49,703 bases of DNA from Actinomycetota bacterium (GTDB lineage: Bacteria > Actinomycetota > Acidimicrobiia > Acidimicrobiales > Ilumatobacteraceae), in contig VGAB01000004.1 of the NCBI GenBank assembly GCA_016870935.1, forward strand, positions 1 through 49,703, read 5' to 3'. Positions 38,494 through 43,306 of the stretch are shown here, in pieces. The first letter of the stretch is position 1; each line of letters begins with the position of its first letter. A program made the translations under genes and the position numbers. The notes under the pieces are model-generated. The model made no database searches. It saw only the letters and a list, made by a program, of their open reading frames with translations, and was not told the origin of the DNA.

Positions 38494-39714
38494 CTATTGC
38501 CCGAGAAGCATCACTTCTACTTCGGCGCCCACACCCAAACCCTGCCCATCGGGCACGATCGCCAAGCCGTTGGCTTGCGCGGTGGCGGCGAGTTGATGGC
38601 TTCCCTGTGGCCCGGTGTCGCGCACATGCAGTCGTCCGTCTTCACCGAACTTGCCGAACACGCGCATGAAGTGAATCTTGCCGTCTTGTTTTCGCTTCAT
38701 CGGCGCGTCGACGATCGCGCGCACGGTCGGTCGCCGAAGGTCGACGGTGTGACCCATCATCTTGCGCAGGGCCGGTCGAGCCAAAAGTTCGAAACTGATC
38801 ATCGACGAGACCGGGTTGCCGGGCAGACCGAAAATCGGCACGACCCGCTGGTCGCCGGTCTTCAATTTGCCGAACGCAAACGGTTTCGCCGGTTTGATCG
38901 CCATCTGCATCCACTTCATTTCGGCGATGCGCGACAAGACGATCTTGACGACATCGAAATCGCCCTGCCCGACCCCGCCGCTCGTGACGATCGCGTCGCA
39001 GCGAGCGGCGACGTCGCGAAGAACTGCCTCGAGTTTCGTTTCATCATCGTCGATGATGCCCAGATTTATCACTTCGCACCCGGTCGCCTCGATCATCGCC
39101 GCCAGCATCGTCAAATTGCTCTCACGAATCTGGCCTGGTCGCAGCGTCGAGCCGTCGATCACCAGTTCGTCGCCGGTCGACAACATCGCCACCCGCAGTT
39201 TCGGATATGACGAGACCTCGCGAGCATTGATGCCCGCGAGCACGCCGATGCCTGCACTGTTGATCACCTCGCCCGCCCTGAACACGACGTCGCCCGCGCG
39301 AACATCCTCGCCGATCTCGCGCACCGCGTCGCCAATTTTGGCGGCCTTGTTGCAACGCACACGGCTCGCGCTCAACACCGTGGCGTCTTCGATCATCACC
39401 ACCGCATCGGCCCCGCGTGGCATCGGCGCACCGGTCATGATTCGCGCCGACTGCCCCGCGCCGATTTGATACTCGGCGACATGACCGGCACCGATCACGC
39501 CGAGCACCTCGAGTTCGACGCCGGGTTTGTCGACATCTTGGGCGCGCACGGCAAAACCATCGACGGCCGTATTTGCGAACGGGGGCACGAACTCGGTGGC
39601 CACCACATCTTGGGCGACAACACGACCCGACATCAGACGACAGTCGACTTTGATCGGGGCGAGGCTCGAGCAACCACCGATCACGATTTCAGAGGCTTCG
39701 GATAAAGAAATCAC
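38494..39714 (-). CDS. moeA: Molybdopterin molybdenumtransferase
   Basis: Inserts molybdate into adenylated molybdopterin. 406 residues from GTG 39714, where MoeA homology begins (VISLSEASEIV); the frame stays open upstream but without similarity. Motifs: PPFANTAVDGFAVRA, IMTGAPMPRGADAVVMIED, GIGVLAGINAREVSSYPKLRVAMLSTGDEL, TSGGVGQGDFD, GLPGNPVSSMISFELLARP. A TACCGT box lies 7 nt upstream of the start, so a leaderless transcript is possible. First gene of the cofactor operon. Confidence 0.93.
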   Translation of the reverse strand: MISLSEASEIVIGGCSSLAPIKVDCRLMSGRVVAQDVVATEFVPPFANTAVDGFAVRAQDVDKPGVELEVLGVIGAGHVAEYQIGAGQSARIMTGAPMPRGADAVVMIEDATVLSASRVRCNKAAKIGDAVREIGEDVRAGDVVFRAGEVINSAGIGVLAGINAREVSSYPKLRVAMLSTGDELVIDGSTLRPGQIRESNLTMLAAMIEATGCEVINLGIIDDDETKLEAVLRDVAARCDAIVTSGGVGQGDFDVVKIVLSRIAEMKWMQMAIKPAKPFAFGKLKTGDQRVVPIFGLPGNPVSSMISFELLARPALRKMMGHTVDLRRPTVRAIVDAPMKRKQDGKIHFMRVFGKFGEDGRLHVRDTGPQGSHQLAATAQANGLAIVPDGQGLGVGAEVEVMLLGQ

Positions 39715-39767
39715 ATCGCTGACGGTATCGCCCGGAAAATACCTGCAGATACTGTGGTTGCGCGAAC

Positions 39768-40334
39768 ATGTCCGTTTATCAGTCTCTTTCGTCGTCGGGC
39801 CACGCGGCATCGTGGAAATCGCTCGGCCTACCCGGCACCGGGCAAGACTGCTCGGTCTCTCTGCGCTGGGAGAACGAAGGTTGGACGGCCGAGGGCTCGC
39901 TCGGCGACGACGACGCACAATTTGTCTTGCGCCTTTCGGCGGGTTGGGTGGTGCAGCAGTGCCTGCTGTTCCGCGATCTTGAAGAGCCTGATTTGTGGCT
40001 CGGCACCGACAGTCATGGTCGATGGGGCGAGGTCAACGGCGCACATCGCACAGAACTCGACGGGTGCACCGACGTCGATTTCGTAAATACGCCGTTCACG
40101 AACTGCATTCCGATTCGTCGTCTGCCGCTGCTTGTGGGTCACAGCGCGACGCTGAGTGTGGCCGTGGTCGATGTCGAAACTTTGGGCATCACAAAACAGT
40201 TGCAGCAATACACGAAAGTTGCGCCGAACACCTGGCGATATTTCAGCGGTGCATCAAACTGCGAGGTCGAGGCGAACGTCGATGAATTTGGTTTCGTGGT
40301 CGACGAACCTGATCGGTTTCGTCGCCTCGTCTAG
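39768..40334 (+). CDS. Putative glycolipid-binding family protein
   Basis: 188 residues matching the putative glycolipid-binding family by the diagnostic block LDGCTDVDFVNTPFTNCIPIRRL (residues ~98-120) and by LWLGTDSHGRWGEVNG before it. The fold is beta-rich with no signal peptide. In other bacteria the family is inferred, not proven, to bind glycolipids. Divergent from moeA across 53 bp and followed by a clear terminator. Confidence 0.82.
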   Translation: MSVYQSLSSSGHAASWKSLGLPGTGQDCSVSLRWENEGWTAEGSLGDDDAQFVLRLSAGWVVQQCLLFRDLEEPDLWLGTDSHGRWGEVNGAHRTELDGCTDVDFVNTPFTNCIPIRRLPLLVGHSATLSVAVVDVETLGITKQLQQYTKVAPNTWRYFSGASNCEVEANVDEFGFVVDEPDRFRRLV

Positions 40335-41634: not shown

Positions 41635-42444
41635 CTATTTGTTGAACTTTTCTTTAAGCCAAGCGTTCAACGGCGCGCCGATATCTTTGCGCTGCAGGGC
41701 GATTTCGATCACCGCGCGCAACAGACCCATCGGCGTGCCCGTGTCATAGCGCGTGATATCGCTGACGATGCCGTTCAACGAGCGTTCGGCGGCCAGCATC
41801 GCCAGGGCGTCGGTGAGTTGAATCTCAGAATTCGCGCTCGGCTTGACCTGGTCGAGTTTGTCGAAAACGGTCGGTGCAAACACATAGCGACCGATTATCA
41901 CGATGTCGCTGACCGCTTCGGCAGAACTTGGTTTTTCGACGACCTGCAATATTTCGACCGAAGACTCCGCCCCGCCCGAATAACCGGCAACCTTGACATT
42001 GCCGTAGCTCGAAACTTCTGCGGGGGCGACCCGTTTCAGACCGATACTGCTCTTGCCCGTGGCTTCGAATTGGGCGACGAGCTGCTTGGTCAGCGACGCG
42101 TCGCCCATTATCTCGTCGGGCAGCATCACGATGAACGGATCTTTGCCGACTGCCTGGCGAGCGCAACCCACCGCATGACCCAAACCCAACGGCGCATCTT
42201 GATAAACGACGCTGACCGAAACTTTGTCGGTGCTGGCCGTCGCGACATAGTTTTCGATCGAAGGCTTGGTTCGGCTGGTAACGACTATCACCTGGTCGCA
42301 ACCTGCCGCGATCGCCTCGTCGATGACGAACTGCAGCGCCGGCGTGTCGTATATAGGAAGCAATTCTTTCGGTGTTGCGCGGGTGGCCGGCAAAAATCGG
42401 GTTCCCATCCCCGCCGCAGGAATCACAGCAGTTCGCACAGCCAC
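41635..42444 (-). CDS. galU: UTP--glucose-1-phosphate uridylyltransferase
   Basis: Makes UDP-glucose for glycans and trehalose. 269 residues with PAAGMGTRFLPATRATPKELLPIYD, QFVIDEAIAAG, DAPLGLGHAVGCAR, FIVMLPDE and VEKPSS. It is about 25 residues shorter than most GalU proteins but has all core motifs. GTG start at 42444 with TAGGAT exactly 6 nt upstream and no ribosome binding site, so the transcript is likely leaderless. Divergent from fmdB, as galU is divergent from Rv0991c/Rv0992c in Mycobacterium. Confidence 0.93.
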   Translation of the reverse strand: MAVRTAVIPAAGMGTRFLPATRATPKELLPIYDTPALQFVIDEAIAAGCDQVIVVTSRTKPSIENYVATASTDKVSVSVVYQDAPLGLGHAVGCARQAVGKDPFIVMLPDEIMGDASLTKQLVAQFEATGKSSIGLKRVAPAEVSSYGNVKVAGYSGGAESSVEILQVVEKPSSAEAVSDIVIIGRYVFAPTVFDKLDQVKPSANSEIQLTDALAMLAAERSLNGIVSDITRYDTGTPMGLLRAVIEIALQRKDIGAPLNAWLKEKFNK

Positions 42445-42450
42445 ACAAGC

Positions 42451-42460
42451 ATCCTAGAAT
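42451..42460. promoter_or_regulatory. Overlapping divergent -10 boxes of galU and fmdB
   Basis: ATCCTAGAAT contains TAGGAT on the minus strand (42456-42451, 6 nt before galU) and TAGAAT on the plus strand (42455-42460, 10 nt before fmdB). The boxes share two base pairs, so only one polymerase can occupy the site at a time. Confidence 0.5.
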
Positions 42461-42470
42461 CAAAAGCCCT

Positions 42471-42872
42471 ATGCCGACCTATGTCTACAAGTTCATCGAC
42501 TCGGGCGAGACGATCGAGATCTATCAGGCGTTCAGCGAAGAGGCGTTGACCGAGGCGCCTCATCCGTCCGACGGCAAAATGCGCAAGGTAAAAAAAGTTT
42601 TCACGCCCGTCGGCATCACTTTCAAAGGTGGGGGCTTCTACAAGACCGATTCGAGTTCGCAGTCGAATACCGGGACGAAGACCGAGAAGAACGCGGGGAC
42701 GCAGACCGGGACGAACAACAAAACCACCACAGACGCGGGCGCATCTTCGCCATCAAGTTCGTCGACCGAAAGTTCATCGGGTTCGACGAGCTCGACGAGT
42801 TCATCTTCGCCAACCGCCCCGACACCGCCAACGAACACGGGCAAGACCGCGACTCCAGCCAAAAGCGAGTAA
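42471..42872 (+). CDS. FmdB/Ruc-family protein with all zinc-ribbon cysteines lost
   Basis: 133 residues. The N-terminal ~60 residues match the FmdB putative-regulatory family (MPTYVYKFIDSGETIEIYQ, FTPVGITFKGGGFYKTD), but the two CxxC pairs that normally bind zinc are gone: the first reads FIDS and the second APHP, and the whole protein contains no Cys. Residues 60-133 are a disordered Ser/Thr/Pro tail. The Mycobacterium homologue Rv0991c (Ruc) is a zinc-dependent redox-regulated chaperone, so this version should be zinc- and redox-independent. ATG 42471 is fixed by the conserved MPTY start. Confidence 0.88.
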   Translation: MPTYVYKFIDSGETIEIYQAFSEEALTEAPHPSDGKMRKVKKVFTPVGITFKGGGFYKTDSSSQSNTGTKTEKNAGTQTGTNNKTTTDAGASSPSSSSTESSSGSTSSTSSSSPTAPTPPTNTGKTATPAKSE

Positions 42873-42892: not shown

Positions 42893-43306
42893 ATGAAGAA
42901 GAATCTCCTCGAAGTTTGGTACGACCTGTGTCGCGATGCGGCCCGACAGAAGATTCTCGTCATCGTTCTCGCAATAATCTGCAGTCTCTTTTATCTCGTC
43001 TCGGCCGTCGCAATGCGGCCAGAAGCCAAACAACCGATCGCGCTTGGCGCATCGGCCAGCGCGGTTCCCGTCGGGTTCAGGGCTGTCGCGCTGCAGAGCG
43101 CCGGCCCGCTGCCCGAGATTCGAACCGGCGACCACGTCGATGTGATCATCGACTCGACCATCGCGCTCGAACGGGTCCTGGTTTTCGACGTCATCGACCA
43201 ACCGAATCGTCAGACGACCGTCGTCTTGGCGGTGCCCGTGACCAGCACGGCGATGATCGCCAATGCCGCCGCCCTAGGCGCGGTCAGCCTGGTCTTAGTT
43301 GGCTGA
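42893..43306 (+). CDS. Small membrane-anchored SAF/CpaB-like protein
   Basis: 137 residues. One membrane segment (about 19-41, ILVIVLAIICSLFYLVSAVA) is followed by an extracytoplasmic part with IRTGDHVDVIIDS and VVLAVPV, resembling the core of SAF/CpaB (RcpC) pilus-assembly proteins, though shorter. It starts 20 bp after fmdB and probably belongs to the same transcript. Its 3' end overlaps the convergent uppP gene by 23 bp. Function uncertain; assignment from short motifs. Confidence 0.65.
   Translation: MKKNLLEVWYDLCRDAARQKILVIVLAIICSLFYLVSAVAMRPEAKQPIALGASASAVPVGFRAVALQSAGPLPEIRTGDHVDVIIDSTIALERVLVFDVIDQPNRQTTVVLAVPVTSTAMIANAAALGAVSLVLVG

Follow-up and report, generated by a model that had tools for sequence, protein, structure and literature searches.

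We analysed a 49,703-nucleotide stretch of DNA from a member of the Ilumatobacteraceae, referred to here as the window, and focused on a short open reading frame lying between galU and a gene for a membrane-anchored protein (Table 1). The translation of this frame reads MPTYVYKFIDSGETIEIYQAFSEEALTEAPHPSDGKMRKVKKVFTPVGITFKGGGFYKTD followed by a 73-residue Ser/Thr-rich tail, and contains not a single Cys among its 133 residues. Both the N-terminus (MPTYVYKFIDSGETIE) and the FTPVGITFKGGGFYKTD segment are kept, and the N-terminal ribbon and FKGxGFYxTD segment can be aligned with those of Cys-bearing FmdB/Ruc relatives. The protein matches the models for this family only at scores below the curated cut-offs (TIGR02605, 18.9 bits against a cut-off of 31.3; PF09723, 15.5 bits against 34.4) because the CxxC cysteines are missing. 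The better Cys-bearing homologues from sister families are nevertheless found at E values of 1e-10 to 1e-16, with approximately 41-60% identity to the window protein. An earlier interpretation of this DNA, the sequence-only reading, had described the protein as a Cys-free FmdB/Ruc homologue with the MPTY start and FKGGGFYKTD motif intact. Translation and alignment bear out the two motifs, and homology to the FmdB/Ruc family is secured by the Cys-bearing relatives together with gene order.

Table 1. Features of the ruc locus in the window
Feature	Coordinates	Strand	Basis
Cys-free Ruc/FmdB orthologue, 133 aa	42471..42872	+	translation, model matches, gene order
Remodelled ribbon domain and conserved FTPVGITFKGGGFYKTD segment, residues 1-60	42471..42650	+	AlphaFold2, alignment
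Site of the first zinc knuckle, with F8-I-D-S11 in place of C8xxC11, then G-E-T	42492..42503	+	alignment
Site of the second zinc knuckle (residues 29-37), with A-P-H-P-S-D-G-K-M in place of C29xxC32	42555..42581	+	alignment
FKGGGFYKTD signature, retained, residues 51-60	42621..42650	+	translation, alignment
Ser/Thr-rich tail without Cys, residues 61-133, inferred to be disordered	42651..42869	+	translation, alignment
Putative promoter (sigma-70-like; TTCGCA-17-TAGAAT), ten bases ahead of ATG	42432..42460	+	sequence inspection, genus comparison
galU, divergent neighbour, conserved beside ruc	41635..42444	-	gene-order comparison
moeA, conserved neighbour used for tree; start codon uncertain	38494..39918	-	gene-order comparison, tree
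Membrane-anchored SAF/RcpC-like protein, 20 bases downstream of ruc	42893..43306	+	model match

Comparison of gene order across the class shows that ruc is divergent from galU, with moeA beyond, in the Cys-free and Cys-bearing groups alike, and that in many loci of both groups genes for tldD-type proteases occupy the other flank of ruc. By position the window gene is the orthologue of the gene for the zinc-ribbon chaperone FmdB/Ruc. The ruc gene of Mycobacterium tuberculosis also lies, we presume, in a galU/moeA neighbourhood. The neighbourhood in the window is devoid of chaperone genes. In one genome (L016/L101, G146) ruc is fused in frame with the downstream gene for the SAF/RcpC-like membrane protein; as this fusion is known from one assembly, a sequencing error may have obscured the stop codon. 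At another locus (L047 of G019) the gene downstream, which slightly overlaps ruc, resembles S-methylthioadenosine phosphorylase, and the downstream partner of ruc thus varies among genera.

Collecting homologues from the class, as the sequence-only reading had suggested, shows that loss of Cys is general in the Ilumatobacteraceae, with no Cys-bearing Ruc found alongside. A Ruc ribbon match is present in 136 of 150 genomes of the family, essentially one per genome. The ribbons of all 50 loci from the family search are without Cys, as are 93 of a further 95 loci, among which L161 has its sole Cys at position 35, a non-ligand position, and L101 in the fused downstream gene. The resulting set of about 94 distinct Cys-free ribbons spans the sampled genera of this one family, whose named members are Ilumatobacteraceae/acIV and whose genomes are mostly MAGs from lakes and other freshwaters, with some from soil or groundwater. 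The genome of the window itself is 1.58 Mb in 150 contigs; the absence of Cys from so many distinct sequences in many independent genomes shows that it is due neither to chance nor to assembly error. Each of 40 loci from other families in the order and class still carries 2-4 Cys, and the same holds for 15 more loci from a wider search of the order and phylum. A profile of the Cys-free form finds the sampled members of the Ilumatobacteraceae at E < 1e-35 and everything else at > 1e-19.

In a tree of the neighbouring gene product MoeA the Cys-free loci form one clade (support 100/98), indicating a single loss. Erosion of the Ruc zinc site is not unique to the Ilumatobacteraceae, but complete loss was seen only there. 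The Ruc variant of family f6 (L202-L206) has three Cys, its first knuckle being CxxT and its second a long CTQVHDNEGxxC, and a locus of family f19 (L061) retains the first CxxC but has lost the second pair (GEDHTHK), possibly leaving a C2H2 site. We considered a stepwise loss of Cys by way of the f6 CxxT form and rejected it: MoeA of f6 does not branch with that of the Cys-free loci, and the f6 form is probably an independent partial loss, although the deep branches of this tree are weak.

The sequence-only reading had the two CxxC pairs exchanged for FIDS and APHP. Both pairs are indeed replaced, but the second site (residues 29-37) has in addition gained a net four residues relative to Cys-bearing forms, and the columns of this insertion are gaps in roughly 85-90% of the Cys rows of the alignment. 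Residue 8 is Phe in 100% of Cys-free rows and Cys in 100% of Cys rows, residue 11 is Thr or Ser in 99% of Cys-free rows and Cys in 90% of Cys rows, and position 5 is Val in the Cys-free group, where Cys-bearing forms mostly have Glu, Gln or Asp. Within the second-knuckle insertion His31 is present in 98% and Pro32 in 100% of Cys-free rows. The full set of near-invariant residues that distinguish the Cys-free group is V5, F8, T/S11, T14, H31-P32, V40, P46 and K58, with V5, F8, T14 and P32 invariant in the ribbon. In both groups the most conserved segment, FKGxGFYKTD, is not part of the zinc site, and the tail has the same composition as, and a similar length to, that of Cys-bearing relatives.

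The dN/dS ratio of ruc is 0.022 against the nearest relative and mostly 0.02-0.1 within the genus. Over all close pairs of the family the median is 0.23, a higher value that we interpret as partly due to biased codon usage limiting synonymous change. These ratios indicate that Cys-free ruc is under strong purifying selection, as would be expected of a gene that has been remodelled and is not decaying. AlphaFold2, supplied with 54 Cys-free sequences, predicts a domain of four strands (residues 3-8, 14-18, 28-30 and 37-44) with no metal and a pLDDT of 88-91 across residues 1-40. A Cys-bearing orthologue is predicted with a similar strand order and lower confidence, although the difference in means (76 for the Cys-free domain, 65 for the Cys orthologue) is uncontrolled in that alignment depths differ and zinc lies outside the model. 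Fold neighbours of the predicted domain in the PDB (bL33, an MCM ribbon and RbpA) have Z < 5 or Foldseek E > 0.3 and share with it only a common ribbon arrangement. Searching solved structures by sequence gave no clear relative for either the Cys-free or the Cys-bearing group.

For the regulation of ruc we looked for CIRCE, the HrcA-type inverted repeat TTAGCACTC-N9-GAGTGCTAA, with a match at 14 or more of 18 positions and no more than 150 bases upstream. Such boxes occur at 28 of 105 Cys-free and 35 of 56 Cys-bearing loci, and none was seen in random control windows of the same loci. By this mark some members of the family have kept Cys-free ruc as a heat-shock gene. Of the 150 Ilumatobacteraceae genomes, 135 encode HrcA. 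No CIRCE box was found upstream of ruc in the window or in its genus, though HrcA is present. Here a TAGAAT element before the ATG is conserved in the genus and is preceded in the window, at a spacing of 17 bases, by TTCGCA, and the position of this putative promoter suggests a leaderless housekeeping transcript. The window contains no HspR/HAIR palindrome within 3 mismatches.

The small-genome genera of the family, including that of the window (L232-L235; G003, G030, G005 and G009), encode a single bL31 and a single bL33, close together and with no CxxC (the bL31 of G005 was not read), and these streamlined members perhaps have a permanent zinc-sparing ribosome set. Neither protein was found in the window's own assembly (G000), but since relatives in the genus encode them this is probably an assembly gap; the bL36 of the window's genome still has its Cys. 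In G012 there are both Cys-bearing and Cys-poor forms of bL31, and in G022 a Cys-bearing one. Zinc economy in the window's genus was considered as the cause of the changes in Ruc and set aside, for although C- bL31 and bL33 are found there, Cys-free Ruc is spread more widely. We likewise rejected as a backup a second FmdB-type protein of 75 residues, encoded on another contig of the same assembly (C2:7231-7455; L001). This protein has a Cys-rich C-terminus (GGCGSGCGCHS), is without FKGxGFYxTD and belongs to a different subfamily that is patchy in the order.

Ruc has been proposed as the actinobacterial stand-in for Hsp33, the second zinc-switch chaperone of bacteria, and the four Cys of Ruc are regarded as its defining switch. 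A search of 98 genomes of the order gave no Hsp33, and with a Cys-free Ruc these organisms apparently have neither of the known zinc-thiol chaperone switches. To our knowledge, M. tuberculosis is the only species in which the activity of Ruc has been tested. In that organism the reduced, zinc-bound protein is inactive, oxidation removes the zinc and gives chaperone activity, and the four Cys are described as the feature that is conserved (PMC7448276). The C8S/C11S and C29S/C32S variants bind no zinc and suppress luciferase aggregation when reduced, the C-terminal tail is required for holdase activity, and HrcA represses ruc along with the Hsp60/Hsp10 genes (PMC7448276).

Because it has no Cys, the window protein is incapable of forming the Cys4 zinc site, and hence of using the Ruc thiol switch. 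To this extent the proposed loss of zinc and redox control stands, whereas the accompanying analogy to zinc-free ribosomal paralogues is not supported. The likeliest reading, to which we give somewhat more credence than doubt, is that the Ilumatobacteraceae possess a natural zinc- and redox-independent Ruc chaperone. Evenly poised, in our estimation, is the fuller proposal that throughout the family a chaperone once gated by oxidation and inhibited by zinc became a stress chaperone independent of both zinc and thiols, through a single ancestral ligand loss and a compensating rebuild of the ribbon; it would be the equivalent in nature of the Cys-to-Ser mutants, which are constitutively active. 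All four zinc ligands were lost once, in the ancestor of the family, and the ribbon would have been rebuilt for a metal-free fold by Val5, Phe in place of the first ligand, an S/T-G-E-T turn where the first knuckle was and a lengthened second hairpin. The protein would still feed Hsp70 as a stress chaperone, but neither zinc nor thiol oxidation would gate it; it would be active whenever made, with control mainly via expression. Points that weigh against this reading are the missing CIRCE box at the window gene and in its genus despite the presence of HrcA, the restriction of Ruc activity tests to M. tuberculosis, and a neighbourhood devoid of chaperone genes.

The main counterpoint is that the metal-free ribbon might mimic the zinc-bound, inactive Ruc and not the active state. 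The domain would then be locked in the zinc-type fold and have no holdase activity, and FKGxGFYKTD would have been kept for some other purpose, for instance to bind DnaK or a different partner. We regard this as a serious though rather unlikely alternative: selection rebuilt the fold instead of letting the ribbon melt, and the segment in question, the best conserved of the protein, lies away from the zinc site, but the Ser/Thr tail needed for Ruc holdase activity (PMC7448276) is kept at the same composition and part of the family retains heat-shock boxes. Those boxes, still present at some Cys-free loci, would also suit a metal-free but heat-labile fold in which the oxidation switch was exchanged for a thermal one, as would the zinc-independent fold predicted by AlphaFold2; with CIRCE absent from the window's own genus, we consider such an exchange improbable.

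Continued metal binding through other residues, for example His31 with acidic side chains, would make use of a His that is nearly invariant in the Cys-free rows, yet this His is replaced by Asn in one genus (L036) and the old ligand positions are now Phe, Thr/Ser, Ala or others, and Asp/Thr/Ser, making retained metal very unlikely. The analogy already mentioned, a zinc-sparing paralogue made under zinc shortage in the manner of C- ribosomal proteins, gains from the occurrence in the family of C- bL31 and bL33, which are the sole forms found among the members read from the window's genus. However, each family genome has one Ruc-type match, Cys-free where read, and the analogy fails for want of the coexisting Cys-bearing copy that is a defining trait of C-/C+ pairs. 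Moreover, the window has no Zur-like box within 3 mismatches of an actinobacterial-type consensus, and Cys-free Ruc is fixed even where bL31 keeps Cys (G022 and G012); we judge a role in zinc shortage to be highly improbable. Finally, the hallmark residues of the family are lost, as they might be in a decaying gene, but strong purifying selection and near-universal retention make decay barely credible, and on the evidence of sequence we can exclude an unexpressed or decaying gene, which had been named as a possible refutation.

Cys-free Ruc resembles Ruc (Rv0991c) of M. tuberculosis in its MPTY start, FKGxGFYKTD motif and presumably disordered Ser-rich tail, and in part of the family also in its HrcA box. 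It differs in the absence of all four Cys, in the invariant Phe8, Val5 and Thr14, in the four-residue insertion and in its sub-cut-off model scores. With the C8S/C11S and C29S/C32S mutants, which are zinc-free and active when reduced (PMC7448276), it shares a destroyed zinc site; unlike them, the natural protein is without both pairs at once and carries apparent compensating changes. The C-/C+ ribosomal pairs (bL31, bL33 and bL36) provide a parallel in that a zinc ribbon keeps its fold after Cys loss, but Cys-free Ruc replaces the Cys form family-wide and no Zur-regulated partner was found. Mycobacterial RbpA, a weak fold neighbour without the zinc Cys that Streptomyces RbpA has, is likewise a lineage-specific zinc-free ribbon in actinobacteria, but its function is unrelated and no significant sequence match to it was found.

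A search of the open (non-subscription) literature found no paper combining the FmdB family, zinc ribbon and cysteine, and a family-wide Cys-free Ruc is new relative to that literature. The whole Cys-free group falls below the cut-offs of annotation models that are built on the CxxC pairs. Cys-free Ruc is a ready-made test of which part of the protein does the chaperone work. In common freshwater and soil actinobacteria a stress protein appears to have been stripped of its oxidation switch by evolution, and the existence of a natural Cys-free variant throughout a family suggests that the selected role of Ruc does not need the switch.
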